DNA from: Bacteroidetes bacterium SB0662_bin_6
GTDB taxonomy: Bacteria; Bacteroidota; Rhodothermia; Rhodothermales; VXPQ01
Direction: 5' to 3'
Length of the DNA: 64,000 nucleotides
NCBI GenBank assembly: GCA_009839485.1
Contig: VXPQ01000009.1
Span: forward strand, 1 to 64,000
In this document: positions 15,049-51,435 of the stretch, piece by piece
Numbering within the stretch: position 1 is the first letter of the stretch
Layout: every line of letters begins with the position of its first letter
Made by a program: the position numbers and the translations under genes
The notes under the pieces: model-generated
Databases searched by the model: none
Told to the model about the DNA's origin: nothing
The model's input: only the letters and a program-made list of their open reading frames with translations

Positions 15049-18000
15049 ATGAGTGTTCGATTCGCGTTCCTTGCGGTTTTCCTGTGCTTCGTTCGGGCGA
15101 ATGTGTCCGTAGCGCAGGATGTGGATATCCGTACGGTGGAATCTTCTTCGGAGGGCGTGGTTGTGGAGATTACGGTGGATTGGCCGGTTTCCATGCAGGC
15201 CCTTGTCGATTCGGCGGGGATCGAGGCATTTACGATTTCTTCTGCCCGCGCGTTGTCTTTTGGGCTGCCGACCGTTTCGGAAACGATCGAATTGCCGTCG
15301 AAGGATGTCCCCGATCTTTCGTTGCTTGCGTCTGCATACGACGAACTGGATCTTCCCGTCGGAGATACGCTGGTCGCGCAGGAAACGAGTGGTCCTGTAG
15401 TATGGCTGGATGGGTTGGGCACAAGTCAGGGGCGGCATCTCATCAATCTTGGTGTGCGGTTGCTTGTCTACGAGGATGGGGTGGTCCGCCGCTATCGACA
15501 GGTGCGCGCTTCCGTACGCTACGCAAGCGGGGCCGGCAAGCAGGGCGTGGCTTCCCGTTTCGCCGTATCCCGCCGTAACGACAACCCGCACCTCGACATT
15601 GAGGAGAGTGTGCTGGCCAACGGCGTGGTCTACAAGATTCCTGTGCATACCACGGGCTTGTACCGCATCGACAGGGAGTTTCTGGCCGCCCTGTCTGATT
15701 TTCCCTCTCCGGACGCCATCGATCCGGACCGCGTCGCTATTTACGGCAATGGGGGGGCGCCCGTACCGGCGCTCAATTCGGTGCCCCGGCTCGCGGATCT
15801 TGTCGAACAGCCCGCCTATCGCTCGGGCGGCGGCGACGGCAGCTTCGATGCAGGGGATTCGGTGGTTTTCTACGGGAAAGGGCCGTACGGCTGGACATAC
15901 GGGGAGGAGGGATGGGAGCATTACGTTCATCCCTTTTCCAATGAGAATTATTACTTCGTCAAGATACTGGACGAAGATGCTGCTTTGCCTGTATCAGAGC
16001 CTTTCCCTGCGTATACGGGCCTCGAAACGCGCTCCGAGACGGAAGGGCGGTATATGGTGGATTTCGACGAGTTCATGTGGAGCAAGGAGAACGGAACCGG
16101 ACACACATGGGTTATGACGCCGATCCGTGCCGGGGACTCGCGGCCCCTGATCGAAAACCTGATGCTGCCGGGACTTGTGCAGGGAGCTGTTCGCTATCAG
16201 GCGCGGGTGGCTATCCGCTCCAATCCCGCCGCCACGGTGCGCTTCGAATCGAATGGGGCGTTGGCGGGTTCTCTTCGGGCCGCGAGGAGTGTGCTTTTTG
16301 ATGGTGAGGTTGCGCCCATTGCGGTTCCCGGTGTTGCTGTGTTCGCGCGCGACGCAGGCGCCAACGACCCCCTGAATCTTTCGATCCGCCTGGATGGAGA
16401 CGCCGAAAACGATGCCCAGGCTTCCGTGGACTGGATGCGGGTATTTTATACGCAGCAGCTGCGGGCAACCGGCGACTCGCTCCATTTCAGTACGCCCGGG
16501 GGACAAACGGGAACGTTCGAATTTGCCCTGGAAGGGTTTACCGCAGAACCGCTGGTGTGGGACGTGACGGAGCCCGGTCATGTCCGCAGTCTTGTCGTGC
16601 GGCAGGTCGGGAACGCCTGGCGCGTTCAGATGCAAGTGGCCGATGCATCCGCGCCGCGTGAACTGGCGGTGTTTCGTCCGCCAGCAGCCCGGCCGCTTCG
16701 TGCAGAGAATGCGCAGCGTGTCGCTTCGCAGAATCTGCACGGACTTGCCGCGTATCCGGATTTCGTGATTGTAACCCCCGATGAATTTCATTCCGCTGCG
16801 GAGGAGTTGGCGGAACATCGCCGCGGGGACGGACTCGACGTGCTGGTGACGGATATTCGCGAGATATACAATGAGTTTTCCGGGGGGCTTACGGACATGC
16901 GCGGGTTGCGCGATTATCTGCGTTTTCTGTACGACAGGGGCAACGAGGCGGGTAAGCCGCTCCGGTATGCCCTGCTCTTCGGAGACGGGCACTTTAATTA
17001 TCGCCGTCTGGGCACGGATAACGAGTCTATCCTCGAAAACTGGGTTCCGCCCTACGAAACGGAAGAATCGTTCAGTCCGATCGAATCATACACCAGCGAC
17101 GATTACTTCGGCTTGCTGGATGCGGACGAGGGAATATGGGAATGGCCAGGCAATTCGCGTTTAACGGGTCGGGAACGTGTCGATATAGGCATCGGCCGGT
17201 TTCCTGTGCAGACTTCGGAAGAAGCCGCCGTCATGGTGGCCAAGATCAAGCATTACGAGAATCCCGCTACCTACGGCGCCTGGCGCAAGCAGTATCTGCT
17301 TGTGGCTGACGATGCGTACAACGAACTCCGGGCAGTGAAAGAAGGGACTCCGGATTTGCATACGCAGAATACGGATGTAGTAGCCGAACTGCTCGCGCAG
17401 GAGTATCCGCAAATCGATCTGCGCAAGGTGTACGGTATCTCTTACAAACGGGAATTCGCCAACGGCTGGCGCCTGCCCGGCGTCGAGCGGGACATCAACG
17501 AGGACATTCAGGACGACGGCGTACTGGTCATGAATTACAGCGGGCACGGGGGGGAATACGGGCTTGCCCAGGAAAGAATTTTTACCCTTGAGGATGGACG
17601 GGAATTGCGCAATTATGACCGCCTGCCGCTGTTCATTACCGCGACCTGTTCTTACGGGTGGTGGGATCTGTCCGGAGAACAAAGCGCTGCGGAAGTGCTG
17701 CTGCTCAACGAGCGCGGAGGCGCCATTGCGCTGATGACGACGGTCCGTCTGGTCTATACGAGTACGGGACTCGACGAGTTGAACGTGGGTCTGAACCGGG
17801 CGTTGAACAAGGAGTTGTTCAAACCCGCACCGGACGGAAGGCCCCGCCGATTGGGTGATGTCATGGTGAGCACGAAGAATACCCGGGCGGGCTTGCAGGC
17901 GAACAATCGCAAATTCAGTTTGCTCGGCGATCCGACGTTGCGTCTCGGGTATCCTTCGCGCGAAGCCGTGGTCGAGCGGGTGAACGGAACACCCGTTGAG

Positions 18001-19071
18001 GAGATGCCCGCTTTCCGGGCGCTGGACGAAGTAACCATCGAGGGCCATGTACGTACGACTGCGGGCGCGGTGGATCCGGGATTCGAAGGGCAGGCGCACC
18101 TTGTGGTTTTCGATGCAGCGCGCCGCGTCAACGTACCCGATCGTACTGCTATGCCCCGGGACTACTATACGGTTTGGGAGGATCTGCTCTGGCGGGGTAG
18201 CGTGCCGGTAACCTCGGGCCGCTTCAGCGCCACGTTTGTGGTGCCGAAAGATATTTCGTACAGTAACGAACCCGGTCGTGTGAGTGTCTATGTGCGCAAT
18301 GCCTCCGAACATGCCGGCGGCTATACGGAGCAGATCGTGGTCGGCGGGACGGCCGCCACCTTGCCCGACGATCATGTCGGACCGGATATTTCCCTCTTTT
18401 TGAACGATACCACGTTTGTTTCCGGCGGATTGACCCCGGCGAACCCCCGCCTCATCGTAAAACTGCGCGACGACAGCGGCATCAACACGGTAGGCACGGG
18501 CGTGGGGCACGAGATGCTGCTGGTGGTCGACGGAGACGAACGCTCCGCCGTGGATATAGGCCGCCGCTTTGAAAGCGATCCCGGTTCGTTCCGGAGCGGC
18601 CGTGTCGAATATTCGTTCAGGGATTATGCGGACGGGTTGGCCGACGGGCCGCATTCGTTGTCGGTGCGCGCCTGGGATGTACTCAATAATTCGAATGTCG
18701 AATCACTGGATTTCGTGGTGGCTTCCACGCAGGACGTGGTGTTGAACAATGTGTACAACTACCCGAATCCGACGAGCGGTCACACTCGGTTCGTGTTCGA
18801 GCATAACCAGCCGGCGGGTAGCATGGCTTCCGTGCAGGTGCGCATTTACGCCCTGTCCGGACGCCCGGTCCGTACTATCGATACGGAAGAGGCGCTGCCT
18901 TCCGGAGTTTTGACCGCCGGCCCCGTGCAGGTGACCTGGGATGGGCGGGACGAGGATATGAACCTCCTTGCATCCGGTATTTACCTGTACAAGGTGCGCG
19001 TGCGCGTGGAAAATCCGGACGGCGGCCGTTCCGTATCCGAACACATAGAAAAACTGGCTATCATCCGATAG
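15049..19071 (+). CDS. porU: Type IX secretion system sortase PorU
   Basis: Gingipain-like (C25) cysteine transpeptidase of 1340 residues that removes the C-terminal signal of T9SS cargo at the cell surface and links the cargo to its anchor. A signal peptide covers residues 1-23 (cleavage after VSVAQ). The protease domain has catalytic His833 in NYSGHGGEYG and Cys867 in TATCSYGWWD, both intact. A C-terminal beta domain contains VYNYPNPTSG and ends in EKLAIIR, like a type A sorting domain; PorU homologues are known to carry one. PorV follows 49 bases downstream, the conserved T9SS pair. Length is slightly above the usual 1100-1300. Confidence 0.95.
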   Translation: MSVRFAFLAVFLCFVRANVSVAQDVDIRTVESSSEGVVVEITVDWPVSMQALVDSAGIEAFTISSARALSFGLPTVSETIELPSKDVPDLSLLASAYDELDLPVGDTLVAQETSGPVVWLDGLGTSQGRHLINLGVRLLVYEDGVVRRYRQVRASVRYASGAGKQGVASRFAVSRRNDNPHLDIEESVLANGVVYKIPVHTTGLYRIDREFLAALSDFPSPDAIDPDRVAIYGNGGAPVPALNSVPRLADLVEQPAYRSGGGDGSFDAGDSVVFYGKGPYGWTYGEEGWEHYVHPFSNENYYFVKILDEDAALPVSEPFPAYTGLETRSETEGRYMVDFDEFMWSKENGTGHTWVMTPIRAGDSRPLIENLMLPGLVQGAVRYQARVAIRSNPAATVRFESNGALAGSLRAARSVLFDGEVAPIAVPGVAVFARDAGANDPLNLSIRLDGDAENDAQASVDWMRVFYTQQLRATGDSLHFSTPGGQTGTFEFALEGFTAEPLVWDVTEPGHVRSLVVRQVGNAWRVQMQVADASAPRELAVFRPPAARPLRAENAQRVASQNLHGLAAYPDFVIVTPDEFHSAAEELAEHRRGDGLDVLVTDIREIYNEFSGGLTDMRGLRDYLRFLYDRGNEAGKPLRYALLFGDGHFNYRRLGTDNESILENWVPPYETEESFSPIESYTSDDYFGLLDADEGIWEWPGNSRLTGRERVDIGIGRFPVQTSEEAAVMVAKIKHYENPATYGAWRKQYLLVADDAYNELRAVKEGTPDLHTQNTDVVAELLAQEYPQIDLRKVYGISYKREFANGWRLPGVERDINEDIQDDGVLVMNYSGHGGEYGLAQERIFTLEDGRELRNYDRLPLFITATCSYGWWDLSGEQSAAEVLLLNERGGAIALMTTVRLVYTSTGLDELNVGLNRALNKELFKPAPDGRPRRLGDVMVSTKNTRAGLQANNRKFSLLGDPTLRLGYPSREAVVERVNGTPVEEMPAFRALDEVTIEGHVRTTAGAVDPGFEGQAHLVVFDAARRVNVPDRTAMPRDYYTVWEDLLWRGSVPVTSGRFSATFVVPKDISYSNEPGRVSVYVRNASEHAGGYTEQIVVGGTAATLPDDHVGPDISLFLNDTTFVSGGLTPANPRLIVKLRDDSGINTVGTGVGHEMLLVVDGDERSAVDIGRRFESDPGSFRSGRVEYSFRDYADGLADGPHSLSVRAWDVLNNSNVESLDFVVASTQDVVLNNVYNYPNPTSGHTRFVFEHNQPAGSMASVQVRIYALSGRPVRTIDTEEALPSGVLTAGPVQVTWDGRDEDMNLLASGIYLYKVRVRVENPDGGRSVSEHIEKLAIIR

Positions 19072-19120: not shown

Positions 19121-20320
19121 ATGCAACCATTCAACGAAAGCAGCAGGTACATTGCCATGAGCCGAAGATTTCTTGCCGCGGCTATTCTCACCGTATTTTT
19201 TGCAACCTTTGCCAGCCAGGCGGCTCATGCGCAGGCCGGCGGGGCCGCCGTGGTTTTTCTGCAGATCGAGCCGGATAGCCGTTCGGCAGGCATGGGAAAT
19301 GCAGGCGTTGCCGTTGCAAACAATGCCTACGCGATCTTCTGGAATCCGGCAGGTTTGGCCCGGCAGGATGGCACAGAAGTTTCGCTAACCTATTCCCAGT
19401 GGCTTCCGGAGTTTAATGCAGATCTTAGCTACAGTTATTTGGGAGGTAAGCATCGGGTAGACCGTATCGGCACGTTCGGGGCCCATCTGACCTACCTGTT
19501 TCTTGGCGAGCATGAAGGGCGGGACGCCCAAAACAATCCCACAGGCACGTTCAAGTCGTACGATCTGGCGGCGGGCGCTTCCTACGGGACGAATGTGTTG
19601 GAGAATCTGGCTCTGGGCACGGGCATCCGCATGATCTATTCGAATCTTGCGCCGGGACAGACCGTGGGGGCGCAGGAAACGCGCGCCGGGGTAACGATCG
19701 GCTTCGATATTGCGGGTCTGTACAGCGTGCCGCGTTTCCAGGCCGGTAATACGGAGGTGGGGGTTGATCTTGGATTCAATCTCGCCAATATGGGTCCGCA
19801 GATCCAGTATTCGGATCAGGGACAGGCCGACCCCATTCCCCAGAATCTCAGGTTCGGGTATGCCGTTACGTTCAATTTCGACGAGTATAACAAACTGACG
19901 CTTGCACAGGATTTCAACAAAATGCTGATTCGCGTCAATATATCGGAGGACGACACACCCGGCTCTTCCACCCGGGAAGCAGATCCGTTCTACAAAGCGA
20001 TTTTTTCCGGCTGGCAGCCCATTGATGTACGGATCGGTGCAGCAAATAGTGAGGAAGATGCCACCTACGAGACACTCAATGCATTCAATCAGATGACCAT
20101 AGGCACAGGTTTCGAATACTGGTACCGGGACCTGTTCGCCATTCGCGCCGGGTATTTTTATGAAAACCCGAATTTCGGTAACAGGAAGTTCCTGACGTTC
20201 GGTTCGGGGGTCCGGTGGAACATCATCGGGGCCGACTTTTCGTACATCTATGCCCTGGAGGAGAATCACCCGCTGGCGAACACGATGCGGTTTTCTCTCC
20301 TCCTGAATTTCCTGCGCTAA
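19121..20320 (+). CDS. porV: Type IX secretion outer-membrane protein PorV
   Basis: Outer-membrane beta-barrel shuttle that carries substrates from the translocon to PorU. It has 399 residues, with an N-terminal signal ending near AAHAQ and the family motif GGAAVVFLQIEPDSRSAGMG followed by AYAIFWNPAGLA. FGSGVRWNIIGADFSYIYAL is in the last strands. The ATG at 19157 (MSRRFLAA) would give a more conventional signal peptide than the one at 19121; either is possible. Immediately downstream of porU, with a probable T9SS cargo gene after it. Confidence 0.95.
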   Translation: MQPFNESSRYIAMSRRFLAAAILTVFFATFASQAAHAQAGGAAVVFLQIEPDSRSAGMGNAGVAVANNAYAIFWNPAGLARQDGTEVSLTYSQWLPEFNADLSYSYLGGKHRVDRIGTFGAHLTYLFLGEHEGRDAQNNPTGTFKSYDLAAGASYGTNVLENLALGTGIRMIYSNLAPGQTVGAQETRAGVTIGFDIAGLYSVPRFQAGNTEVGVDLGFNLANMGPQIQYSDQGQADPIPQNLRFGYAVTFNFDEYNKLTLAQDFNKMLIRVNISEDDTPGSSTREADPFYKAIFSGWQPIDVRIGAANSEEDATYETLNAFNQMTIGTGFEYWYRDLFAIRAGYFYENPNFGNRKFLTFGSGVRWNIIGADFSYIYALEENHPLANTMRFSLLLNFLR

Positions 20321-20354: not shown

Positions 20355-23300
20355 ATGGCGAGGATGTGCATGATCGGTGGCGATGCGATGCGGCTCCTCC
20401 TTTTGCCTGCACTTGTTTGGGCGGCAGTCGGATGGTCGGCGCCGGGGCATGCGCAGATTCATTCCGGCCCGCTCCGCAAGCCTGCAGCGCCTGCGTATGA
20501 CGTGGTGGCGCTCCGCGTCGAGTTCCAACCCGATACGACCCGTTTTTCGACCGGTGACGGAACGTTTGCAGGCGATCCGTACCATGGAATCGAGCCGCTG
20601 ATCGATCCGTTGCCCCATAACGCCGCCTACTTTGAGGCGCACCTTGCTTTTCTGGAAGATTACGTGGCGCGTGTTTCCGATGGCAAAACGGCAGTACGCA
20701 CGCATCTTGTACCCGGCGTGGTGCAGCTTCCCAGGTCGATAGGAGCCTATGCGCCCACAGGCCTCGATGCCGACAGCGACATGGAGCGGGCGAAGCTGGC
20801 CCGCCTGGTGCATGATGCCTGGACGCTTGCCGAGGCGGACATTGCCTTCGATATGAGCGGGTTTGTACCCGGACGTACGGCGCTGCTCCTGTTTCATGCC
20901 GGCGTGGGGCGGGATACGGAGCTTTCCGGTACCTCGCTGGACCGGACCCCGGAAGATTTACCCTCGATCTTTTTCGATGCGGAAACGCTGAGCAGGCTCG
21001 GCGCCGGGGGAGCGACATTTCACGGATTTCCTGTCGATCATTCCATGATCGTTCCACGCACCGAAACCCGGCCAGGCACGGACCCCTTCAGCGGGGAGCG
21101 GTATCTGCTTGAACTTTCCATCAATGGCCTGCTTGCGGCCAGTTTTTTCAATTTTCTGGGTGTGCCGGACCTGTTCGATACCGAGAACGGGCAAAGCGCC
21201 ATCGGGCCGTTCGGCCTGATGGATGCGCAGGGAATTTTTGCATACAGCGGGCTTCTCCCGCCCGAGCCCATGGCATGGACGAAGTATTTTCTGGGCTGGA
21301 CGGATCCGGTGGAACTTACCGGGGACGGCCCGCGGACCGTCCGGCTTCGCGCCGTTTCGGCCCCGGATGTTTCCGAATCGGCTCGCGTGCTCGTTTCGGA
21401 CACCGAATATTTTCTGGTCGAGAACCGTTACCGGGATCCGGAAGGGGATGGCCTGACGCTGCGCGTTTTTAAAGACGGGCAAATTGTCGAACAGCGCGTG
21501 GACAACGGCGATTCGCTCTTCAACAGCGTGACAACGACCGGCTTTGTCGGGGGTGTAGTGGTGGGAGCGGACGGGTACGATTGGGCGCTTCCAGGCGGTG
21601 TGGATAGTGAGGACGAAGAAATTGAGTTGAACGGGGGGCTATTGATCTGGCATGTGGATGAGCGGCGATTGTGGGCCGGACTGGCGGATTATGCCGTCAA
21701 TGTGGGGGAGGAGCGCGCCATCGATCTTGAAGAAGCGGATGGCCCGCAGGACATCGGCTATCCGTCGGAGGGTTTATTCGGACACCGGCGGCATTTGGGC
21801 ACGCCTTTTGACTTTTTCTACGAAGGGAATCCGTTTGGCCCCGACGGCGGGCCGCCATTGTACCGGAACCGCTTCGGCCCGGACACATATCCGGGCAGCG
21901 AGACGAATGCCGGCGGACCCAGTTTCATTGTGCTGGATGCATTTTCCGAGCCCGGTGCAGAGATGTCGTTCGATTACCGGCGGGAGACCGTGGGCGGGGC
22001 CCTCCCGGTAGATGCCCCGGAACTGCAGGCGTTGCACGGGGCCCTCATGTCGCTTCCCGCCGGGTCCAAAGTGTCGAAAGCGGGAGACCACCTGCTGCTG
22101 TACGGGCGGGATAGCGTGGCCGTTGCAACCCGAGGGCGAACCGTGTTGACAGGGCGTGTTGCTACGGCGGCATCCCCTGCCGTGGCTCCTGATAACCGCA
22201 TGGCTACGTTCGAATGCAGGACGGATGCCGGCGCCGAACGCTGCGCCATCGTGGTACGGGACCTTGGGGGCTCGCTGGATGCCCCCGAAGCCGTTTGGGA
22301 AATTCCTCCCGAGGCGGGGGCGGGGCGGCCGATTTCTCCAATCGTGCATATACCGGCGGGAAACGGAGATGCATGGCATGTGCTTCTTGAAGGGGAAACG
22401 GGTGGGGTGCATGTGCAGGCCTCTGCATCCGGCGCCCGGGTTATCCCTGGTAAGTCCGGGGGAGCGTTGGGGTTGGCCGCATGGCACGGTCCGGCAGGCG
22501 CTGCGGCGCCTGTGGTCTTTGAAACCGGGGGCGTCGAGATCGACGGGACGGCCTGGAGGTATACGGTAGACGCTGCTTCCGGCGTCGGGAGTCCGGCGAT
22601 AGGCAGGGAGCGCGCCGGCAGCATGGCGGTGCTTCCGCTCACCGGAACAGGGGAGTTGCTGCTGCTTGCGCCGGGCGGGGTAACGCGCCGGATCGACGTA
22701 CGAGCGGTGGCCGCGTCCGCCGGGAGGGTCGGTGAAGGCGTGCTTTCGAACTACCCGGTACTCGTGGATGTGGATGGGGACAACCGGCTCGATGTGCTTG
22801 CGGCGATGGATTCCACAATCTTCGCATTTACGCAATCCGGGGCATTGGCGGCCGGATTTCCGGTGATGCTTCCGGCCCGCATTGCCGTCCAGCCGCTCGT
22901 ATTCCGGTTCGAAGGGGCTGAAGGCTGGACGATACTTGCCGCCGGAACGGATGGATATCTATACGCTGTCGAACCCGGTGGCAGGACGGCAGCGCCGTTC
23001 CCTCTTGAAGCGGGGGGTGCTGTGTATACCACGCCGTTGCTTCTGGATAATCGCGTCATCGCCGTGTCTGCGACCGGCTTTGCAAAAGCATGGCAATTGC
23101 CTCCCATCCCGGAAATCTGGTGGGGGGAATTGTACGGTTCCGGCGCCCAAAGCAGTTTTTCAGCGCTCGAAGAGCAGGCCGATCCGTTTGTACCGGATGG
23201 ATTGATCGATTCGAAAGAGACCTATAACTGGCCCAATCCGATAGAAGACGGCATCACACACTTGCGCATCCGGACGTCCCGCGACGCCCAGGTGCGCGTG

Positions 23301-23486
23301 ACGATTCTGGACGCGGGCGGCGCTCAGGTAGGCGATGTGGACATGGGCAGCATCGTGGGGGGCGTGCCCACGGAAACGGTTTGGCAGGCCGACGTGCAGA
23401 GCGGTCTGTATTTCGCGCGCTTCACGGCAAAGGCGGCGGACGGGACCCGCGCCACCAAACTCATCAAGATGGCGGTTATTCGGTAA
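20355..23486 (+). CDS. Secreted M6-like pseudo-metalloprotease with T9SS sorting domain
   Basis: A 1043-residue exported protein: signal peptide to about residue 34, then a region resembling the immune-inhibitor-A (M6) peptidase group, with FNFLGVPDLFDTENG, IGPFGLMDAQG and AWTKYFLGWTDPV in family order. The HExxH site expected just before the GVPDLFD motif reads ASFFN (262-266), so both zinc His residues and the catalytic Glu are gone. The rest holds beta-rich modules, including a DVDGDNRLDVL calcium-loop repeat near 807. The last 90 residues (YNWPNPIEDG to KMAVIR) are a type A T9SS sorting domain. Likely a surface or matrix protein, possibly binding peptides instead of cutting them. Confidence 0.8.
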   Translation: MARMCMIGGDAMRLLLLPALVWAAVGWSAPGHAQIHSGPLRKPAAPAYDVVALRVEFQPDTTRFSTGDGTFAGDPYHGIEPLIDPLPHNAAYFEAHLAFLEDYVARVSDGKTAVRTHLVPGVVQLPRSIGAYAPTGLDADSDMERAKLARLVHDAWTLAEADIAFDMSGFVPGRTALLLFHAGVGRDTELSGTSLDRTPEDLPSIFFDAETLSRLGAGGATFHGFPVDHSMIVPRTETRPGTDPFSGERYLLELSINGLLAASFFNFLGVPDLFDTENGQSAIGPFGLMDAQGIFAYSGLLPPEPMAWTKYFLGWTDPVELTGDGPRTVRLRAVSAPDVSESARVLVSDTEYFLVENRYRDPEGDGLTLRVFKDGQIVEQRVDNGDSLFNSVTTTGFVGGVVVGADGYDWALPGGVDSEDEEIELNGGLLIWHVDERRLWAGLADYAVNVGEERAIDLEEADGPQDIGYPSEGLFGHRRHLGTPFDFFYEGNPFGPDGGPPLYRNRFGPDTYPGSETNAGGPSFIVLDAFSEPGAEMSFDYRRETVGGALPVDAPELQALHGALMSLPAGSKVSKAGDHLLLYGRDSVAVATRGRTVLTGRVATAASPAVAPDNRMATFECRTDAGAERCAIVVRDLGGSLDAPEAVWEIPPEAGAGRPISPIVHIPAGNGDAWHVLLEGETGGVHVQASASGARVIPGKSGGALGLAAWHGPAGAAAPVVFETGGVEIDGTAWRYTVDAASGVGSPAIGRERAGSMAVLPLTGTGELLLLAPGGVTRRIDVRAVAASAGRVGEGVLSNYPVLVDVDGDNRLDVLAAMDSTIFAFTQSGALAAGFPVMLPARIAVQPLVFRFEGAEGWTILAAGTDGYLYAVEPGGRTAAPFPLEAGGAVYTTPLLLDNRVIAVSATGFAKAWQLPPIPEIWWGELYGSGAQSSFSALEEQADPFVPDGLIDSKETYNWPNPIEDGITHLRIRTSRDAQVRVTILDAGGAQVGDVDMGSIVGGVPTETVWQADVQSGLYFARFTAKAADGTRATKLIKMAVIR

Positions 23487-23506: not shown

Positions 23507-26500
23507 ATGACCGGGCTACATACATACGACAGGGGGCAGGGGGTCTGGCGCCGGGTTGCCGGGCGTTTGGCGTCGGCGCGGATGCTCTTTGCGGTCGTGC
23601 TGGCCGGTATGCCTCTCGTGGGCGGAGCTCCGGCGGTTCAGGCGCAAAATATCGTGGATTTATACGATTTCACTCGTCCGGGGCTGGATTGGTACCTCTT
23701 CGAAACCGAGCATTTCCAGGTGGTTTTCCATCATGACGGGGCGGATAACGGAAGCAGCCGGACGGCACGGGTCGTTGCCCGCATTGCCGAAGAAATATAT
23801 GCCCCGATCACTTCGTTGTACCAGTATGAGCCCGACGGCAAGGTAACCTTCGTGCTCAAGGATTTTGAGGATTATTCCAACGGCGCCGCCTATTTCTTTG
23901 ACAACAAGATCGAGATATGGGCGCCTGCACTGGACTCCCCGCTTCGCGGCGACCACAACTGGCTGCGCAACGTGATCACACACGAGTTTACGCACATAGT
24001 GCAGTTGCAGGCGGCGATGAAAGCGGGCCGCCGGTTTCCGTTCCTGTATTTCCAGTATCTGGATTACGAGGACGTAAAGAGGCCTGACGTATTGTACGGA
24101 TATCCGGACGTGATTGTTACGTATCCCGTCCCGACACTCAACAACCCCGCCTGGTTGGCGGAGGGGACGGCGCAGTACCAGCGCGCGTTCATGCACTACG
24201 ATCACTGGGATACCCACCGCGATATGGTGCTGCGGACCCGGGTGTTGGCCGGTGAGGAACTGACGCTGGCCGAAATGGGGGGATTTTATTCGCATTCCAG
24301 CTTGCTGCGCGAACTCGTATACAATCAGGGGTTCGCGTTCACGCACTATCTCGCCGCTACGTATGGGGAGGACATACTGCGCCGATTGACTTCCGGGCTC
24401 GGAAAATGGAATACCTGGAATATTGAGAAGGCCCTGAAGGATGCGACAGGCCTTGACGCAGCCGGCGTCTATGCGGACTGGATAGAAACGCTCCGCCGCG
24501 AGTACGAGGAGCGCATGGGCCCCGTTCGGGATCATATGGTCGAAGGACGCCTGATCGAGGCGGAAGGATTCAGCAATTTTTATCCCCGTTTTTCGCCCGA
24601 TGGCCGCCGCCTTGCCTATGTATCGAACAAGGGCGAGCACTACAATCTTTCTTCCCTGTATATTCTGGATCGGGAGACCGGAGAAGAGGAGGCGTACCGG
24701 CTGGAGGGCCTGGACCTGCAATCCGGTACGGCGGCGGCACACCGGCATCGGCATGGGGGCGGTGCACAGTTTGAGTGCTCACTGGGATATACGCAGAAAG
24801 CGAAAGCCGGTGTGGGCGGGTCCGTAAGCTGGCATCCCGGTGGGGATCATCTGGTATATGCCCGCACGAAAACCAATGCGGAGGGGTATCTGTTTTCGGA
24901 CCTGTACCGGTTCGATCCGGAAACGAAGGAAACGGAGCGGCTGACCCGCAACCTGCGCGCGGCGGCGCCCGCATACAGCCCGGACGGTTCGCAGATCGCC
25001 TTCCTGGGACAATCCGACGGCAGCGCCAATCTGTATCTGCTGGATGTATCGAGCGGGCAAACGCGCCGCATCACGCACTATGACGACGGCACCCAGGTAA
25101 CCGAGCCGGTCTGGCGCCCGGACGGCGCATGGATATACCTGACGCTTTCGCGGGGCGGCGGGCGCGATATCTACAGGGTTGCGGTCGATGATAGTTCCGC
25201 CACTCCGGAGGAGGTGCTGGTGTCGGACGCAGACGAACGGTCTCCTGCGTTCGATGCCTCCGGAACCTGGTTGTATTACGCATCAGACCAATCGGGCATT
25301 TTCAACGTCTACCGGATGCGCCTCGACGACGGAGGGGGCATATCCAGTACTTCTCCGGAGCCGCTGACCAATGTGACAGGGGGCGCCTTCATGCCTGATC
25401 TGGCCCCGGACGGCGCGATGGCGTTTGCGCGGTACGATGCGGACGGTTACCACATTGCCATGCTGGATCACCCTGTATCCATTCCGGCTCCGGCAGTGTA
25501 TGTCCCGCCTGTCATTACCGGAAAAGGGGAGCCGGCGCCGGTTCTTCCGGACCAATGGGGGATGCTCGATGCGTTCGACGATACGGATATTCGCCCGTTC
25601 GACGGGGAGACCGTGTTGCGGGTGCGGAGGACGCGGGGCGATTCGAACGCCGGCCAGGAAGCGCAGCCGGAAACGGAAGAAGCGGCGGTGACGGAGGGCG
25701 TGGAGAAATACCGGAATGTGTTTACTCCGATCGGGTTTTTCCCTGTGCTGCGCATCGACAATTACGTGTCGCGGCGCGGGCGATCATTGGGCGCGCGTAT
25801 TCCACAGCGCTCCGTGGGGGGGCATCTCCTGCGCACGACCAAACTGGGCGTGTATGTGAATTCGCGCGAGATGCTCGAAGAGATGTCGTTTTTCGGGGGA
25901 ATCATGGTGGGTCCGGGTTCCACGAAGGCGAAGGGGGCGGGCGATCTTCTGGCGCCTTCCAATCTGCTGAAAATGGAGCGCGACGCCTTCCTCACCATTG
26001 CATACAACCGCGGCTTCCGGTTTCTGCCGAAACGATGGGCGCCGCAGTTTTCCATCGAACTGTATAACATCCGCCGGAATGTGGAGAACGGGTTGCGGAT
26101 CGAGGAATTTCCCTGTACGGCCTGTTATCCGGATACGACGCACGTGGATATTGCCTACAGCCTGTGGGAAGGCAATGTCTACGCCCGCAGCAAAGTGAAC
26201 AAGGCCCTGCTGCTCGAGGCCGGATACCGGTACAGTCCCTATCGCGTTTCGACCGAGCGGTTCTTCTCCGCAGAGGAAAACGGTTTCGTACCCGGTACGG
26301 CTTCCCGCTATTTCATCGGACGCGCGTTTACGGCAGGCGCCCGGTTCCAGTCTAAAAAGCTCCATCGCCACAGCGATGTACTGCCCCAACGGATACGCGC
26401 CGATGTACATTACGAGGCCGAATCGGGCCGCTTGCTGCAGCGGTTCGACGTGGAGGACGGTGTCCTCGTACCCTCGTACGAACGCGGGCGCAACCATCGG

Positions 26501-27043
26501 CTTACCCTGGATGCGCGAGCGGGCTTCCGGCTTCCGGGTTTGTCCGCTTCCGCAAGCCATGGTCTGGGAATCCGGTTGCGCGGCAGCACCATTCTGGGGG
26601 CCGAGGTGGATGATTTTTACAACGACTATGTAGGCGGCCTGCTGCGTGCACGGGGATATCCGTTTTACGCCCTCGGAGGCAACGAAACCTTATGGTTGCA
26701 GGTGGCCTATCATTTTCCGATATGGTCTCATGTGTCGAAGCAGGCGCTGTTCGCTTATTTCGACAAGGTATACGGCCGTATCTACGCGGATGCGGCGCTC
26801 GCCTGGAGCGAGGGGACGCCCAGGGCTGCAGACATGCGGCGCGACATCGGCATGGAACTGCGTGTCGGGCTCGGTTCTTTCTACCTTCTGCCCACTGCGT
26901 TTTTTGTCAGCGCAACCTACGGACTGGATACGTTCACGTTCGAACCCGACGAGGATTTCCTTACGGTCGACGGGAGTCGCTTTATCCGGTACGGGCACGA
27001 GTTGTTATGGCATTTCGGACTTCTCTTTGACTTTGATCTTTAA
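23507..27043 (+). CDS. Gluzincin peptidase / TolB-like propeller / beta-barrel fusion
   Basis: An 1178-residue envelope protein. A signal peptide ends near VQAQ (the ATG at 23582 is an alternative start that shortens the n-region). Residues about 60-340 are an MA-clan peptidase domain with zinc motif HEFTH (159-163) and third ligand Glu219 in WLAEGTAQY. Residues about 350-690 hold PD40/WD40-like blades (FYPRFSPDGRRLAYVS, PAYSPDGSQIAF, PVWRPDGAWIYL). From about 730 on, alternating aromatic strands look like an outer-membrane beta-barrel. A His-rich insertion (HRHRHGGG) lies between the first two blades. It follows the pseudo-protease by 20 bases. I know no characterised protein with this order; function is inferred only. 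Confidence 0.8.
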   Translation: MTGLHTYDRGQGVWRRVAGRLASARMLFAVVLAGMPLVGGAPAVQAQNIVDLYDFTRPGLDWYLFETEHFQVVFHHDGADNGSSRTARVVARIAEEIYAPITSLYQYEPDGKVTFVLKDFEDYSNGAAYFFDNKIEIWAPALDSPLRGDHNWLRNVITHEFTHIVQLQAAMKAGRRFPFLYFQYLDYEDVKRPDVLYGYPDVIVTYPVPTLNNPAWLAEGTAQYQRAFMHYDHWDTHRDMVLRTRVLAGEELTLAEMGGFYSHSSLLRELVYNQGFAFTHYLAATYGEDILRRLTSGLGKWNTWNIEKALKDATGLDAAGVYADWIETLRREYEERMGPVRDHMVEGRLIEAEGFSNFYPRFSPDGRRLAYVSNKGEHYNLSSLYILDRETGEEEAYRLEGLDLQSGTAAAHRHRHGGGAQFECSLGYTQKAKAGVGGSVSWHPGGDHLVYARTKTNAEGYLFSDLYRFDPETKETERLTRNLRAAAPAYSPDGSQIAFLGQSDGSANLYLLDVSSGQTRRITHYDDGTQVTEPVWRPDGAWIYLTLSRGGGRDIYRVAVDDSSATPEEVLVSDADERSPAFDASGTWLYYASDQSGIFNVYRMRLDDGGGISSTSPEPLTNVTGGAFMPDLAPDGAMAFARYDADGYHIAMLDHPVSIPAPAVYVPPVITGKGEPAPVLPDQWGMLDAFDDTDIRPFDGETVLRVRRTRGDSNAGQEAQPETEEAAVTEGVEKYRNVFTPIGFFPVLRIDNYVSRRGRSLGARIPQRSVGGHLLRTTKLGVYVNSREMLEEMSFFGGIMVGPGSTKAKGAGDLLAPSNLLKMERDAFLTIAYNRGFRFLPKRWAPQFSIELYNIRRNVENGLRIEEFPCTACYPDTTHVDIAYSLWEGNVYARSKVNKALLLEAGYRYSPYRVSTERFFSAEENGFVPGTASRYFIGRAFTAGARFQSKKLHRHSDVLPQRIRADVHYEAESGRLLQRFDVEDGVLVPSYERGRNHRLTLDARAGFRLPGLSASASHGLGIRLRGSTILGAEVDDFYNDYVGGLLRARGYPFYALGGNETLWLQVAYHFPIWSHVSKQALFAYFDKVYGRIYADAALAWSEGTPRAADMRRDIGMELRVGLGSFYLLPTAFFVSATYGLDTFTFEPDEDFLTVDGSRFIRYGHELLWHFGLLFDFDL

Positions 27044-27067
27044 CGGCGCGTTTCGCCGCTTTTGCTC

Positions 27068-27754
27068 ATGGATTTTGCGCTTTCCTATTTCGCTGCCGCC
27101 GGTATGATCGCTGCCGGGACCGGCTTTCTGATCTTCCTGTACCGCAAGACCGGCACGCTGCTGCCGGCAGACGCCGTAGAGCGGCTGGGGTCGCTCATGT
27201 CCATGGCGCTCATTGTGACTGCCGGGCTCCTGGTGTATGTAACGTACCGGGTCGATTCGGGAAGCGGGTTCGTTTTTTCCGGCGAGCCCCGGCTGGAGGA
27301 TACCGAACTGGGTGCTCCGGCTCCGGATTTTGCGTTCGTGGAGCTGCTTTCGGAAGAAGAGATGCACCTGTCCGATTACCGCGGCAAGGTGATCCTGCTC
27401 AACTGGTGGGCTACCTGGTGCGCGCCTTGCCTCGAAGAATTACCGGCGCTCAACGGGCTCCAGGACCGCTACGCGGATGAAGGGTTGGTCGTGCTCACGA
27501 TTTCGGACGAATCGCGGCCGACGCTTGTTGATTTCAACAACGAGTTGCCGTTGCGCACGGTTGCGGGGTATGTCCAGGACGAACATCTTGAAAACCTTTC
27601 CGATCCGTTCCGGCGCACCCTTCAGATTCGCCCGACGACCTATGCGATCGACCGGGATGGCGTGATCCGCGATTTCGTCCTGGGAGCGCAGGATGCCCCG
27701 GCGTTCGAGCGCATGATCGCCCCCTGGCTTAAACAGACTGTTCCTTCAGAATAA
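27068..27754 (+). CDS. TlpA-like membrane-anchored thiol-disulfide protein
   Basis: A 228-residue protein with two N-terminal hydrophobic helices (about 5-25 and 50-66) and a periplasmic thioredoxin fold from about 78 on. The redox motif is WATWCAPC, and the AhpC/TSA-like YRGKVILLNWW precedes it. It fits the TlpA/ResA group, which reduces periplasmic disulfides, for instance in cytochrome c or cargo maturation. The frame could start at TTG 27062, but ATG 27068 is preferred. It lies 24 bases after the fusion protein gene and 7 bases before the next gene, so the run is probably one operon. Confidence 0.9.
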   Translation: MDFALSYFAAAGMIAAGTGFLIFLYRKTGTLLPADAVERLGSLMSMALIVTAGLLVYVTYRVDSGSGFVFSGEPRLEDTELGAPAPDFAFVELLSEEEMHLSDYRGKVILLNWWATWCAPCLEELPALNGLQDRYADEGLVVLTISDESRPTLVDFNNELPLRTVAGYVQDEHLENLSDPFRRTLQIRPTTYAIDRDGVIRDFVLGAQDAPAFERMIAPWLKQTVPSE

Positions 27755-27761
27755 GGATGCT

Positions 27762-28745
27762 ATGCAACGCATTGTTTTGATGGGTTTTGTTGTGTTCGTT
27801 GCCGTTGTGGCGGTCCGGCCGGCTTCGTTGGCGGCGCAGGATGCAAACGAGGATGTCATCTCGGCGGCGCAACTGCGATCCCGGATACTATACCAGGATA
27901 TGCCGGGACAAGCTTCGGAAAGCGTCGTACGCAGCGTGTCGCTGGCTTTCGGGATGTCGGCGGTTCTGCCGGGGCTTGGGCAAGCCTACAACCGGAACTG
28001 GATCCGTTCCGCGGCGGCGGTTGCGATAGAAGGCGGGTTGCTGGTGGCCTATTTCACCTGGAGAGATCAGGGGCGCGATGGCGAAAGGGCCTATCAGGCG
28101 TATGCCCATCGGTTCTGGGATCCGGTGCGGTATGCTTCCTGGTTGAACGATTACGCGGCCTGGCTTGAAGCGGGCACCGAGGAAATGACGCTGGGCGCCG
28201 CCGTGATTTCCCCGCCCTCCGGAATCGATTTCATGAGGCCGGACGGATGGACGGACGCAGATCGGCAGGTTGTCCGGGAGTTTTTCGATGCGATGCGTGC
28301 GGTCGAGCGCGAGGTATGGCATCCGGAGACCGGTGCGGTCTTTTCGCACGAGATCCCGTATTTCGGCGAGCAGCAGTATTATGAACTGATCGGGAAATAT
28401 TTTCAGTTTGCGCCCGGATGGGTGGACTACCCTGCGTGGAAGAGCGGCGAAGATTTTACCGATGCCATCGATCCCGAGCGAACCGGCGCAAACGGTTCCA
28501 AGCCGAACGTACAGGGCCGGTTTCTGGACTACGCTGACGACCATGCCCACGCCAACACCTTACTCCGGCGCGCTTCGCGCATGTCGGCAGTGCTTATCCT
28601 GAATCATGTGCTTGCGGCGTTCGATGCGGCTATTGCGGCCCGGCTCCACAATCACCGCATCGAAACGAACATGGGGGTGGGGTATACGGAATACGGGCCG
28701 TATCGTACACCGGAGATATCCGCTGTGGTGACGTGGAGGTTTTAG
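27762..28745 (+). CDS. DUF5683-like membrane protein
   Basis: A 327-residue protein with an N-terminal signal (cleavage near SLAAQ). The motif AVLPGLGQAYNRNWIRSA is typical of the DUF5683 family found in Bacteroidota, and it is followed by a hydrophobic helix (AAVAIEGGLLVAYFTW). The middle 150 residues are rich in Trp, Tyr and acidic residues. A second hydrophobic stretch (SAVLILNHVLAAFDAAIAA) is near the C-terminus, which ends in strands AVVTWRF. Function unknown. It is 7 bases downstream of the TlpA-like gene. Confidence 0.75.
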   Translation: MQRIVLMGFVVFVAVVAVRPASLAAQDANEDVISAAQLRSRILYQDMPGQASESVVRSVSLAFGMSAVLPGLGQAYNRNWIRSAAAVAIEGGLLVAYFTWRDQGRDGERAYQAYAHRFWDPVRYASWLNDYAAWLEAGTEEMTLGAAVISPPSGIDFMRPDGWTDADRQVVREFFDAMRAVEREVWHPETGAVFSHEIPYFGEQQYYELIGKYFQFAPGWVDYPAWKSGEDFTDAIDPERTGANGSKPNVQGRFLDYADDHAHANTLLRRASRMSAVLILNHVLAAFDAAIAARLHNHRIETNMGVGYTEYGPYRTPEISAVVTWRF

Positions 28746-46680: not shown

Positions 46681-49600
46681 TCATTCGCTGTCGGGGGTTT
46701 CGGCCGCGATGTCTTCAGACGGTTCGTTGTCGTCTTCCGTGGGTTCCCTCAGTCCGAAAAGGCGGCTGAACAGGCGTTTCCAGGTAGAAAACCCCGTTTT
46801 GTACGAAAGACCTGCCCCGGTCGTATTGGTGCTGTTCACCGATTCCGTACTGAGTAGAATGCCGTCCTCCCGGCGGTGGAACACATCCATGGATACGTGC
46901 GGCCCCAGACGCACCTCCACGACAAATTCGTCGAGTCCGCTTTGCCGTTGTCTGGTTTCGTCGTTGTGATAGATGCCATGTCCCCGGATAATGAGGCGGT
47001 CGTCGAGCAACTGCAGGGCCACGGCATAGGCAACGCCGAGGTCCTGGGCATTTTCTCCATGCACGTTGACGTTGAGTTCTACGCCCGGCAATGCATTGTT
47101 GATATACCGGTTGAGTTGGCCGGTGACCAGTTGAGACAGGCTATTGAATGCCAGGCTGCCTCTGCCTCCTTGCGTCAGAGGCTGTTGCTCGGCAAGCAGG
47201 AACGAATTCGTAAGCAGCACGCTGGTGGCGTACTGGGCAGCTCGTTCGGGCTGGTTGAGCAGGGTTTCCAGCCCTTCATAGTTGCCGATGTAGCTGCGTT
47301 TCTCCCGGTCTACGGAGAGTCTCAGATCGACGATGGGTGTTGCGACACGCCCACTCACGCCCAACTCGATGACGAGGGGAATGAGTTGGCGCTGTTGTGT
47401 GCTGAGGCCCAGGCCTTCCAGAGAAGCTCGGGTCCGATACGAGGCCGCGATGTTCATCTCGGCATTGAGCGGATCGCCGTCCCAGTCTATCGTGCCGCTG
47501 TCGATGAGAAATCTTCGGGAGAATACCTCGGCGGCCGTAAACAGATAATCCCCGGAAGTAACGGTGAAGGCTCCGAATGTGTAGAATTCGCCTTCGTCTC
47601 GTCCGAGCTGAACCCGTCCGCTTCCTCGGGCATTGATGACGTCGCCAAGAAGCGGATCGATCACAAGGTGGACCGTAGTGCCTTCCGGACTCAGAATGTT
47701 GATGTCCATGTCGAGGCCGTCCACGAATGGCCGTTCGCCCGCAGGGCGTTCCGTCAGGAGGTTACGCCGCCGGGTGATCCGGACGGAATCGGATGGCGTA
47801 TATCCCATGGAGTCCGCAAATACGATGAAACCGGTGTCCGTATTTTCACTTGTTTCAGCGACCGGGATGTATATCTCGCTGCCCGCAGTGGTTCTCAATT
47901 CACTCGATTCCAGGAGCGCATTGGAAATCGGTCCTCTGAGCAGTACGTCGCCGGAAGCCCAGACGCGTCCATAGAAGGGCAATTCTCTCGAATTGCGCAC
48001 ATTCATCACATTCAGCCTGTCAAGCGCCCCCTCAAGCCTGAAAGAGAAAAAGCGATAGTCGTTGAACAGGATGGATCCCCCCACGACAGCTGTTCCGTTT
48101 CGGGTATCGGAGAGGCGCAGGTTCGCGAGATGAATACCCTGTCTGTCCACGACAAGAGGGCCGGTTGCCTCGTAGGCAAGTTGGAATTCGGGAACATGAA
48201 ATCGCACGCCGCGCAAGGCGAGATCGGCATTGAAGGCCGGTTTTGAAAAATCTCCGCCGATGTGTCCGCTTCCGTCGACATATCCTGTTACGTCGGCAAT
48301 GGCCTCGCTGAACAGGAGTTCAAAAAAGAAGGCATCCGCTCGTTCGATACGTATGTTCAGGTCCAGGGCCCCGGGATCCCGTGTTTCGGAGACGCTCTGC
48401 GGCCCGGGGAGTCGGAACGTGCCGTTCAGGGTCAGGTCGTTCCGATAAGGCAGCAGGTCCGTATCGCCGGATATTGAAGGAGTCAGACGGGCTTGCAGGG
48501 CGACGTCCGGGGAACCGGGAATATAGCGGCTATCGAGCGCAAGATGCCCCAACGGGCGGTTTTTGAAGGTCAGGGAGTCCACGAAAACATGCCCGGTGAG
48601 TTCGGGCCGACGGCCCCACCCCGTAAAAGCGATTTTTCCTCCAAGTTGTCCATCGACTGCATTGCGCAGGCCCATCAGTTCGCCCGCATGCCGCATGCGA
48701 ATATCTTCTGCACGGATGAATAGCGTGTCCTGTGGCGAAGCGGAAAGCGCACCGGTGATATGCAGGTATTCCTGTGGGCCCGCAGCGAACCGGTCCTGCC
48801 GGGTAATCCGGATATCGGGAATATGAATAGCGTCCTTGTAGAAATCGATGATCCGGTTATCGGTTGCTGTCCAGATCTGATTTCTGGCGGCTATCTGAAG
48901 CTCTTCGATAAACAGTCGGTTGCGGTCGTTCAGGATATCCATGCGGGCGCGTAGCCGCAACGGCGTCGCCGCCCCGGGGGCGTTTGCCTGTGCCGTAAAG
49001 TCAAGGGTCCTGTTTCGGAAACCGCTCTTCAGGGAGGCCTGTTCGAGGCGCCTTCCCCTGACATTCATGTCCGAGATTGTTGCCGACAGGGCGGATCGCA
49101 ATGTGCGTGCGATGGCGTCTGCATCGTCGCTTGCGGCTGACAGATTTGCTGCAACCTTGTAGGCCCGTACCTCGCCGGTATGCAGCGAGTCAGCTTCGAC
49201 ATCCATGTCGAGATCAAACGAGTCGGGGGACAACCGGAGGCGGCCTTCCGCCCGGAGGTCGGTATGTACCGAAGGCAGGGCCGGAAACAGGGCGGCAAGG
49301 ATGTCCGAACGCAGCAAGTGCAACTTTACATCGATTTGTCTTGCTTCCAGGCCGGTTACTGTACGGCTGCCGGCCTGTCGTCCAGCACCTGCGGGTTCTA
49401 TTTTTGGCGCTGCCGTACGGTACGGTTTCGATGTCTCATACGCTGCCGATCGGGCGATGGCCTCGCCCCAATGTCGCACGAGTCGTATGACCGGCTCCAG
49501 TGCTACATCCCCCGTTATTTTCAATGCCGCCATGTCTCCATCCAGCACAACCTGAGGTTCCCCGGAGTCTCCCGTATTGTTCTGACGGATCGACAGCGAG

Positions 49601-51435
49601 GAGCGGTGGGCCGGGATAGTGCGTTGAGTCGTTCCCATCGACATGACGGATGGATCGAACGCCACCTCCATATCCCCTTCGAAACTCGTCCACGATACGC
49701 CGCTTCCTTCCACCGTGAATCGGGTATTGAGTGACGAAGAAAGGGAGTCGTTGCGGAGGATATTTGCAATATCGAATCGGGTCGTGGCGCCTTCCATGCG
49801 GTAATGGAAAGGGGCCGAATCCAGGTCGGCCCGGAAAGAAGCATCCAGCGATCCGCTGCGCTCTGCCGCATGAAGGGTTCCCTCGAAGGCATGCCGCGTG
49901 CCGGATACCACTGCACGGAGCGTATCAAATCGCCCGTAGGCGGTATTCGAGCGGGTCAACTCCAGTTCTGCTTCCCCGGCCAGTTCGGGGAGAGAGGGGC
50001 CATCCCCATGTAATGTGATGCGCCCCGTGAGATCGCTTGCCAGATTCGGTTTCCTGAATACGCGACCGGGGTCTACATCGGTGAGGTCCAGCGCGCCGTC
50101 TACAGAGAACGTGCGCTCGTTGCGCGTAATCCGGGCGTCTCCCTCGATGGTGCCGGCATCGCTTTCGACCGCAAATTCGTGCACTCCTTGCCACCGGGGC
50201 GCAGTTTCTCCTCTGCGAAAATGCGCCGTCCCTTTTGCATAGCCCGTGAAGGCGATGCGGCCAAGGTGTTCAAAGGACGGGATGGCAATAGTGTGCCGGA
50301 GTGGACGTATATCCTGCCAGTGCATTTGCCCTTCCCGTACCGCCAGTTCGTAATCCAGCGAGTCCGGTAAGCCGAAGACGGTTCCTTCGATTGCCAGTGC
50401 AGAGGAGTTTTTTTCGAGAGAGAGGCGCTCAATCATCAGCGCCTCGACAGGACCCCGCACTCTTGCGGCAGCCGTAACGGTTTCCATGGAGGGCAGAGCC
50501 GGGAATACCCTGCTCCATTCTCCGGAGTGGATGGTACTGCGGTCGAGGTGAATATCCAGGACAGGGGAAGAAACATGGCCGGAAAGCGTATCGGGTGTCG
50601 ATATCGAACCGTTCAAATACAGGTTGCTCTCCGTCGTGCGAAGGTTGACTTCGCGCAGCGCGATATTGTTTTCCTGTGCGGTCAGTTGCCCGTGCAGCAG
50701 GGCGATTTCCATATCCGGATCAATAAGCCGGGCCTTGAAATCGAGCGCCTCAACGTTTTTTGTTTCCGGTGTTATGTCGATCGCCAGCCGGGCGTCGATA
50801 TTTTCCATCGAGGCATTACCCCAGTCGAACAAAACCTCCGAAGAGGAAGGAAATGCCGATCGGGTCCGGATGCTTCCCTCTACGATGTGTACGAGGCTGG
50901 ACCGCAAAGACCAGGGGTTCGTGTCCGACCGGGACGTATCAGTAACAGACCGGAAAACCTCTGTAATATTCCAGGCGCCCGATTCATCCCTTTGCAGGGT
51001 GATACGCGGGCGAACGAGCGTGACATGCCCCGTCGAGATGGTGCGGCCGACCAGGGAGCGCCATGTAGGGTGCAGGACCACTGAATCGATGCGGGCGATC
51101 GGGTTTCCGGCGGCATCCCGTACGACGACTTGTTGGGCGGTGAGTCGTCCGGGCACGCTGCCCGACAAACTGCCGATCTCCAGGTTTCCCTCCAGCGAGC
51201 GGTTGATCAGGCGCTCTGCTCCAATGCGCAGTGTTTCTCTACCTTGTTCGGTGCGCGCCAGAGCAAAGAATGCCAGCACTCCAAACAGCACTGCGCCCAA
51301 GGCGAACTGCAGGAGACTGCCGGAGAAGCGTATGACTCGGCGGGAGGACAAGGTGCAGGGAAGGTTTGCCAGGAATAAGTACGCAGGCGTACCGAAATAG
51401 TGCCTGCGTACGAAGCGCGTTGTACGCCTGTACAA
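46681..51435 (-). CDS. tamB: TamB-like translocation and assembly module protein
   Basis: A 1584-residue AsmA/DUF490 protein, the inner-membrane and periplasm-spanning part of the TAM/lipid-transport machinery. One transmembrane helix is at about 34-62, followed by more than 1100 residues of repetitive beta-strand sequence. The C-terminal DUF490 block contains INARGSGRVQLGRDEGEFY and GTIDWDGDPLNAEMNIAASY; the last residues are acidic and disordered. It is 12 bases downstream of aroB's start-side neighbour order (aroB stop is at 51448), but both are on the minus strand with tamB first in position and second in transcription. No tamA/bamA gene is nearby. Confidence 0.93.
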   Translation of the reverse strand: MYRRTTRFVRRHYFGTPAYLFLANLPCTLSSRRVIRFSGSLLQFALGAVLFGVLAFFALARTEQGRETLRIGAERLINRSLEGNLEIGSLSGSVPGRLTAQQVVVRDAAGNPIARIDSVVLHPTWRSLVGRTISTGHVTLVRPRITLQRDESGAWNITEVFRSVTDTSRSDTNPWSLRSSLVHIVEGSIRTRSAFPSSSEVLFDWGNASMENIDARLAIDITPETKNVEALDFKARLIDPDMEIALLHGQLTAQENNIALREVNLRTTESNLYLNGSISTPDTLSGHVSSPVLDIHLDRSTIHSGEWSRVFPALPSMETVTAAARVRGPVEALMIERLSLEKNSSALAIEGTVFGLPDSLDYELAVREGQMHWQDIRPLRHTIAIPSFEHLGRIAFTGYAKGTAHFRRGETAPRWQGVHEFAVESDAGTIEGDARITRNERTFSVDGALDLTDVDPGRVFRKPNLASDLTGRITLHGDGPSLPELAGEAELELTRSNTAYGRFDTLRAVVSGTRHAFEGTLHAAERSGSLDASFRADLDSAPFHYRMEGATTRFDIANILRNDSLSSSLNTRFTVEGSGVSWTSFEGDMEVAFDPSVMSMGTTQRTIPAHRSSLSIRQNNTGDSGEPQVVLDGDMAALKITGDVALEPVIRLVRHWGEAIARSAAYETSKPYRTAAPKIEPAGAGRQAGSRTVTGLEARQIDVKLHLLRSDILAALFPALPSVHTDLRAEGRLRLSPDSFDLDMDVEADSLHTGEVRAYKVAANLSAASDDADAIARTLRSALSATISDMNVRGRRLEQASLKSGFRNRTLDFTAQANAPGAATPLRLRARMDILNDRNRLFIEELQIAARNQIWTATDNRIIDFYKDAIHIPDIRITRQDRFAAGPQEYLHITGALSASPQDTLFIRAEDIRMRHAGELMGLRNAVDGQLGGKIAFTGWGRRPELTGHVFVDSLTFKNRPLGHLALDSRYIPGSPDVALQARLTPSISGDTDLLPYRNDLTLNGTFRLPGPQSVSETRDPGALDLNIRIERADAFFFELLFSEAIADVTGYVDGSGHIGGDFSKPAFNADLALRGVRFHVPEFQLAYEATGPLVVDRQGIHLANLRLSDTRNGTAVVGGSILFNDYRFFSFRLEGALDRLNVMNVRNSRELPFYGRVWASGDVLLRGPISNALLESSELRTTAGSEIYIPVAETSENTDTGFIVFADSMGYTPSDSVRITRRRNLLTERPAGERPFVDGLDMDINILSPEGTTVHLVIDPLLGDVINARGSGRVQLGRDEGEFYTFGAFTVTSGDYLFTAAEVFSRRFLIDSGTIDWDGDPLNAEMNIAASYRTRASLEGLGLSTQQRQLIPLVIELGVSGRVATPIVDLRLSVDREKRSYIGNYEGLETLLNQPERAAQYATSVLLTNSFLLAEQQPLTQGGRGSLAFNSLSQLVTGQLNRYINNALPGVELNVNVHGENAQDLGVAYAVALQLLDDRLIIRGHGIYHNDETRQRQSGLDEFVVEVRLGPHVSMDVFHRREDGILLSTESVNSTNTTGAGLSYKTGFSTWKRLFSRLFGLREPTEDDNEPSEDIAAETPDSE

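Follow-up and report, generated by a model that had tools for sequence, protein, structure and literature searches.

The gene at 23507-27043 of the window (the whole stretch of 64,000 nucleotides that was analysed) encodes a predicted outer-membrane metalloprotease of the Omp85 superfamily, probably an active zinc protease, which occurs across Bacteroidota genomes together with M6i, a T9SS-dependent inactivated M6-like metalloprotease. The pair is also kept in genomes where the sortase PorU is not detected. A gluzincin peptidase, a PD40 propeller and an Omp85-type barrel follow one another in a single chain; this three-part chain constitutes a family, of which the gene described here is the branch linked to T9SS and to M6i.

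Domain Architecture and Predicted Structure

The source is a 2.92 Mb draft genome whose closest named relatives are metagenome bins of Rhodothermales. The gene is an uninterrupted reading frame of 1178 residues, with its ATG about 20 bases past the stop codon of M6i (Table 1). Related proteins were found at 78 loci in Rhodothermia, Balneolia and Ignavibacteria, and the whole chain is conserved down to about 35% identity. This rules out an assembly or frameshift artefact fusing separate genes, and the single intact chain described in an earlier note on this DNA therefore stands.

Table 1. Features of the gluzincin-PD40-Omp85 gene, its neighbours and its paralogues. Positions are those of the window unless a locus is given.
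Feature	Position	Strand	Basis
PorU sortase (C25)	15049-19071	+	NF033707, 962 bits
PorV, T9SS shuttle	19121-20320	+	NF033710, 298.6 bits (cut-off 250)
M6i, T9SS-dependent inactivated M6-like metalloprotease with type A sorting-like C-terminus	20355-23486	+	NF052323, 703.8 bits (cut-off 600)
Gluzincin-PD40-Omp85 protein, 1178 aa	23507-27043	+	ORF, Pfam, AlphaFold2 model, structure matches
Predicted signal peptide region, residues 1-46	23507-23644	+	Hydrophobic core from M26 and AQA-type end, read from the sequence
Gluzincin peptidase domain, residues 47-340	23645-24526	+	Peptidase_MA_2; invariant HEFTH (159-163) and Glu219
TolB-like PD40 propeller, probably six-bladed, residues 341-660	24527-25486	+	Pfam PD40, TolB structure match
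Predicted Omp85-type barrel, about 16 strands, residues 727-1178, RGYPFY at 1049-1054	25685-27040	+	Model, structure matches, motif
TlpA/ResA-like thioredoxin-fold protein	27062-27754	+	Profile matches
DUF5683 protein, conserved neighbour	27762-28745	+	Pfam, neighbourhood comparison
Three-part paralogue (gluzincin-PD40-Omp85)	L134:649-3831		Paralogues of the same taxonomic order, also in genomes without the T9SS-linked copy
Three-part paralogue (gluzincin-PD40-Omp85)	L135:988-4323		As above
Three-part paralogue (gluzincin-PD40-Omp85)	L137:1573-4881		As above

The N-terminal domain was matched by Peptidase_MA_2 in Pfam (E 1.6e-8, 35.0 bits against a cut-off of 32.4). It contains the HExxH motif and downstream glutamate ligand of gluzincins, as HEFTH at residues 159-163 and Glu219 inside WLAEGTAQ. 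This zinc site had already been read as intact, and our alignment bears this out: HEFTH and the glutamate (W-x-AEG-x-AQ) are invariant in 90 of 90 rows, which span sequences from about 35% to 95% identical and represent some organisms twice, via two collections. Such invariance across diverged rows strongly argues that a working metallopeptidase has been maintained by selection, and the protein is predicted to be active. A sequence search of solved structures gave no credible match to the peptidase domain.

We modelled the protein with AlphaFold2 from a 72-sequence alignment (mean pLDDT 84.1, pTM 0.86; model residue numbers plus 46 give protein residue numbers) and compared the model with solved structures using Foldseek and VIA-align. 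Single-sequence folding gave a pLDDT of 34 and was unusable. The central part of the chain, where Pfam reports PD40 in 4 stretches (E 2.1e-25), superposes on TolB 2ojh with a Z of 26.9 over 250 residues at 2.8 A, and also on the designed protein Pizza6, six-bladed like TolB. Because of these two alignments the propeller probably has six blades; the propeller proposed earlier was thus recovered, with this number in place of the original 'five or more'. TolB is also the closest solved structure by sequence, covering the propeller only. The TolB equivalog model TIGR02800 scored 112 bits against a cut-off of 343, and kinship to TolB appears to be limited to the shared propeller.

The C-terminal 450 residues matched no curated sequence model, including those of Omp85/BamA (Pfam and other profiles). 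The earlier caution that the barrel call rested on strand pattern was therefore fair, as sequence profiles name no barrel family. The predicted structure does form a barrel, with about 16 long strands between residues 743 and 1174. Its best superpositions were on the BamA of D. radiodurans (8xnb, Z 22.9, 339 residues, 4.4 A), FhaC (4ql0, Z 21.8, 300 residues, 3.6 A) and the BamA proteins of B. thetaiotaomicron (9hiv, Z 21.2) and F. johnsoniae (9n2f, Z 21.0). At the position of loop 6, the aligned proteins carry [RK][GSA]YPFY, a variant of the Omp85 RG[FY] motif, with the tyrosine in 89 of 90 rows, arginine in 52 of 90 and a variable second residue. Downstream of this motif, GAELR and SFYLFP are strongly conserved. 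A paralogue of the same design (L135) is matched by the Pfam Omp85 model PF01103 with 38.0 bits (cut-off 24). By its modelled 16-strand BamA/FhaC fold, we assign the predicted barrel to the Omp85 type. Pfam identified no POTRA domain, and none is evident in the secondary structure of the model between propeller and barrel. Profile searches of the 1178-residue protein gave no match to a T9SS C-terminal sorting domain (CTD), and the C-terminus is the last barrel strand.

In the normal topology of Omp85 proteins, both ends of the barrel and all that precedes the first strand are periplasmic. Because of this topology, we place the protease and the propeller in the periplasm, and the surface location suggested for the protease in the earlier note is doubtful.

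Gene Neighbourhood and M6i

In the window, the genes for PorU, PorV, M6i, the gluzincin-PD40-Omp85 protein, the TlpA-like protein and the DUF5683 protein lie in this order on one strand, and the run from M6i to DUF5683 looks like an operon. This order upholds the link to T9SS that had been raised before. M6i is immediately upstream in all 73 loci with enough upstream contig (78 loci in total). In Rhodothermia, Balneolia and Ignavibacteria alike, PorV and PorU mostly come before it where the contig is long enough. In the same three groups, the DUF5683 protein neighbours the module. The window also contains other genes of outer-membrane biogenesis, encoding a TamB-like protein (46681-51435, minus strand) and a SurA/PpiD-like foldase (60376-62460, minus strand).

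None of 65 M6i orthologues has HExxH. They retain LGxPDLF, the segment that follows HExxH in M6 peptidases, as well as a T9SS-type C-terminus. With the motif lost in every orthologue read and the rest of the M6 domain kept, M6i appears to be an old and stable pseudoprotease.

Co-occurrence with M6i across Bacteroidota

Among 60 relatives, in which the gluzincin-PD40-Omp85 protein was counted at E below 1e-100, we found the gene in 33 genomes. M6i was detected in 31 of these 33 and in none of the 27 genomes without the gene. In both misses, G010 (780 contigs) and G020 (620 contigs), the assembly is fragmented and the gene itself runs off the end of a contig. PorU was over its cut-off in 54 of the 60 relatives and SprA in 59. 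PorZ and PorQ were over theirs in 49 and 46, including genomes that carry the pair, and we rejected the idea that M6i and the gluzincin-PD40-Omp85 protein replace PorZ and PorQ.

The phylum-wide set was an even draw of 392 Bacteroidota genomes with completeness of at least 85%, searched with thresholds of E 1e-30 or better for the protein, 1e-20 or better for M6i and 1e-90 for PorU. The protein was present in 154 genomes and M6i in 154, and the two sets are identical. PorU was present in 263 genomes, of which 138 also have the pair and 125 lack the gene; overall, its presence disagrees with that of the pair in 141 of the 392. Since the PorU set differs from the pair set, the identity of the pair is not a mere reflection of having a T9SS. 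A role of the protein as a core T9SS component was rejected on its absence from those 125 PorU-positive genomes. The Fisher value for the pair is 2e-113, which treats the genomes as independent although they are related and is not to be taken literally.

The paired absences represent about five separate events (genera g5 and g43; families f2, f12 and f13). Both genes are present in one genome of g5 (G009) and neither in two others (G041 and G378). Four genomes of g43 have both and four (G198, G265, G284 and G317) have neither. At three loci (L118-L120), porU, porV and tlpA are consecutive and both the M6i and the gluzincin-PD40-Omp85 genes are cleanly missing.

For 141 genomes, positions were available for both genes, which are adjacent in 122, on one contig 859 kb apart in one (G063) and on separate contigs in 18. 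Some of the separate-contig cases are draft-assembly breaks, an explanation that is hard to apply to G302 (2 contigs) and G185 (10 contigs). With the genes unlinked in G063, and in G302 and G185 on separate contigs that are large, the co-occurrence is not only a matter of physical linkage.

Genomes without PorU

Sixteen Balneolia genomes among the 392 keep the pair and have no PorU at 1e-90 (G113, G133, G158, G169, G216, G244, G272, G298, G305, G334, G348, G361, G370, G381, G384 and G387). Presence of the pair is thus independent of PorU. In all 16, as well as in four genomes of g43 without the pair, SprA is present and a PorU2 match is absent; the 16 also have PorV. At four PorU-negative loci (L029, L031, L035 and L040), the order PorV, M6i, gluzincin-PD40-Omp85, DUF5683 is kept, and M6i retains its sorting-like C-terminus.

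The pair does not replace PorU across the board, because the four PorU-negative genomes of g43 lack it and the two of them that were counted (G198 and G265) keep 8-9 CTD matches. The 14 PorU-negative genomes with the pair that were counted have 5-32 sorting-domain matches, and these counts do not discriminate among the PorU-negative genomes. We also observed that family f14 (G018, G028, G037, G043, G049 and G055) has kept SprA and lost PorU; its members have only weak PorU-like matches of 1500-1800 aa, perhaps PorU2-like.

Possible Role of the Pair

Proteins of the Omp85 superfamily take part in building the outer membrane or in crossing it. We tentatively propose, as a reading that falls slightly short of an even chance, that the protein and M6i form a two-protein module in which an outer-membrane Omp85 metalloprotease works with a T9SS-exported pseudoprotease in surface assembly. 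The barrel would span the outer membrane, and both the TolB-like propeller and the active gluzincin domain would lie on its periplasmic side. M6i would cross the periplasm and then be exported by SprA-PorV. The protein would bind M6i via the propeller or the barrel, and its protease might serve the maturation of M6i, its quality control or the removal of failed product during surface assembly, acting on or with M6i with no requirement for PorU. In an alternative form of this proposal, M6i would be the surface-side partner of the protein. We infer the periplasmic topology, the contact with M6i, the proteolysis and the choice of substrate.

A more speculative extension, which we consider rather unlikely, is that surface assembly by the type IX system has a branch in Rhodothermia, Balneolia and Ignavibacteria that works independently of PorU and consists of these two proteins, inherited only as a pair and finishing or policing surface delivery; the protease would mature M6i in genomes that have lost PorU. 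The 'cargo gate for T9SS' of the earlier note is not supported, given that the barrel resembles those of Omp85/BamA, that SprA and PorV are separate and that many PorU-positive genomes lack the gene. Its other suggestion, a 'processing machine', is possible, most likely for the single partner M6i.

Tree distances were compared across 22 loci. The partial correlation between the protein and M6i was 0.20, with no excess, and those with PorU and PorV were 0.45-0.49, which slightly favours PorV and PorU as the more closely tied proteins. Our confidence in the M6i module stays below even because these distances add no support for direct contact with M6i. Their following PorU and PorV more than M6i is what might be expected of a BepA/BamB/BamA-like factor in one chain, which would assist, in the periplasm, the folding or degradation of outer-membrane barrels such as those of PorV or SprA, with only an indirect connection to M6i. 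This alternative has a limited though real chance of being correct: it would fit the BamA-like barrel and the TolB-like propeller, and three-part paralogues in genomes with and without M6i suggest a general role in the envelope. However, many genomes have SprA, PorV and PorU without the protein, and the strict pairing with M6i would be left unexplained.

A second alternative is that M6i, acting as a lid, plug or inhibitor at the surface or in the periplasm, regulates the protease while the enzyme cuts other substrates. Strict co-occurrence would fit this, as would the loss of HExxH in 65 of 65 M6i sequences and its retention in 90 of 90 rows of the partner peptidase. It is nonetheless improbable, as the T9SS export signal puts M6i mostly outside, opposite the predicted periplasmic protease. 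Least probable of all, the protease and propeller might pass through the barrel and act at the cell surface, which was the view of the earlier note and has a precedent in PlpD, which combines an enzyme with an Omp85 barrel (PMC4104836), but a 16-strand barrel would have to pass a bulky cargo, a folded peptidase and propeller of 600 residues, and no POTRA is evident in the model.

If the proposed module with M6i is correct, an Omp85 protein that bears a protease and a propeller and is inherited strictly with a type IX-exported pseudoenzyme would point to a component of the pathway that is missing from the Porphyromonas and Flavobacterium models. Balneolia with PorV, SprA, M6i and this Omp85 protease but without PorU would offer a way into the sortase-free maturation of sorting-domain proteins.

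Comparison with Known Systems

Our literature search gave no match linking PD40 to Omp85 or PorU to M6 proteases. We found no publication on the T9SS- and M6i-linked branch or on the pairing; coverage of the literature was incomplete, and this absence is unproven.

By description, there is overlap between the protein and the WD40-Omp85 subfamily, which Heinz and Lithgow (2014) described and compared with a fusion of BamA and BamB. Its members likewise join an N-terminal TolB-like WD40/PD40 propeller to an Omp85 barrel, and they have no POTRA domains (PMC4104836). Unlike the protein in the window, the subfamily is not credited in the available text with a peptidase domain or with a link to T9SS or M6i (PMC4104836).

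Paralogues with the three parts exist in the same genome and in others. Those at L134, L135 and L137 come from the same taxonomic order and share the design, with HELVH plus an EG motif, a PD40 propeller and a barrel bearing RGY. They are about 30% identical in matched parts and, unlike the protein in the window, they occur in genomes without M6i. The T9SS attachment complex PorU-PorV-PorQ-PorZ shares the porU and porV neighbourhood, and M6i is a CTD protein like PorZ; PorZ and PorQ exist alongside the pair, so it is no substitute for them.

In E. coli, the zinc metallopeptidase BepA and the propeller BamB act at the Omp85 barrel BamA. The protein described here likewise brings a zinc metallopeptidase and a propeller to an Omp85-type barrel. 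The E. coli components, however, are separate proteins, and BepA is an M48 peptidase with TPR repeats, as opposed to the fused gluzincin found here.
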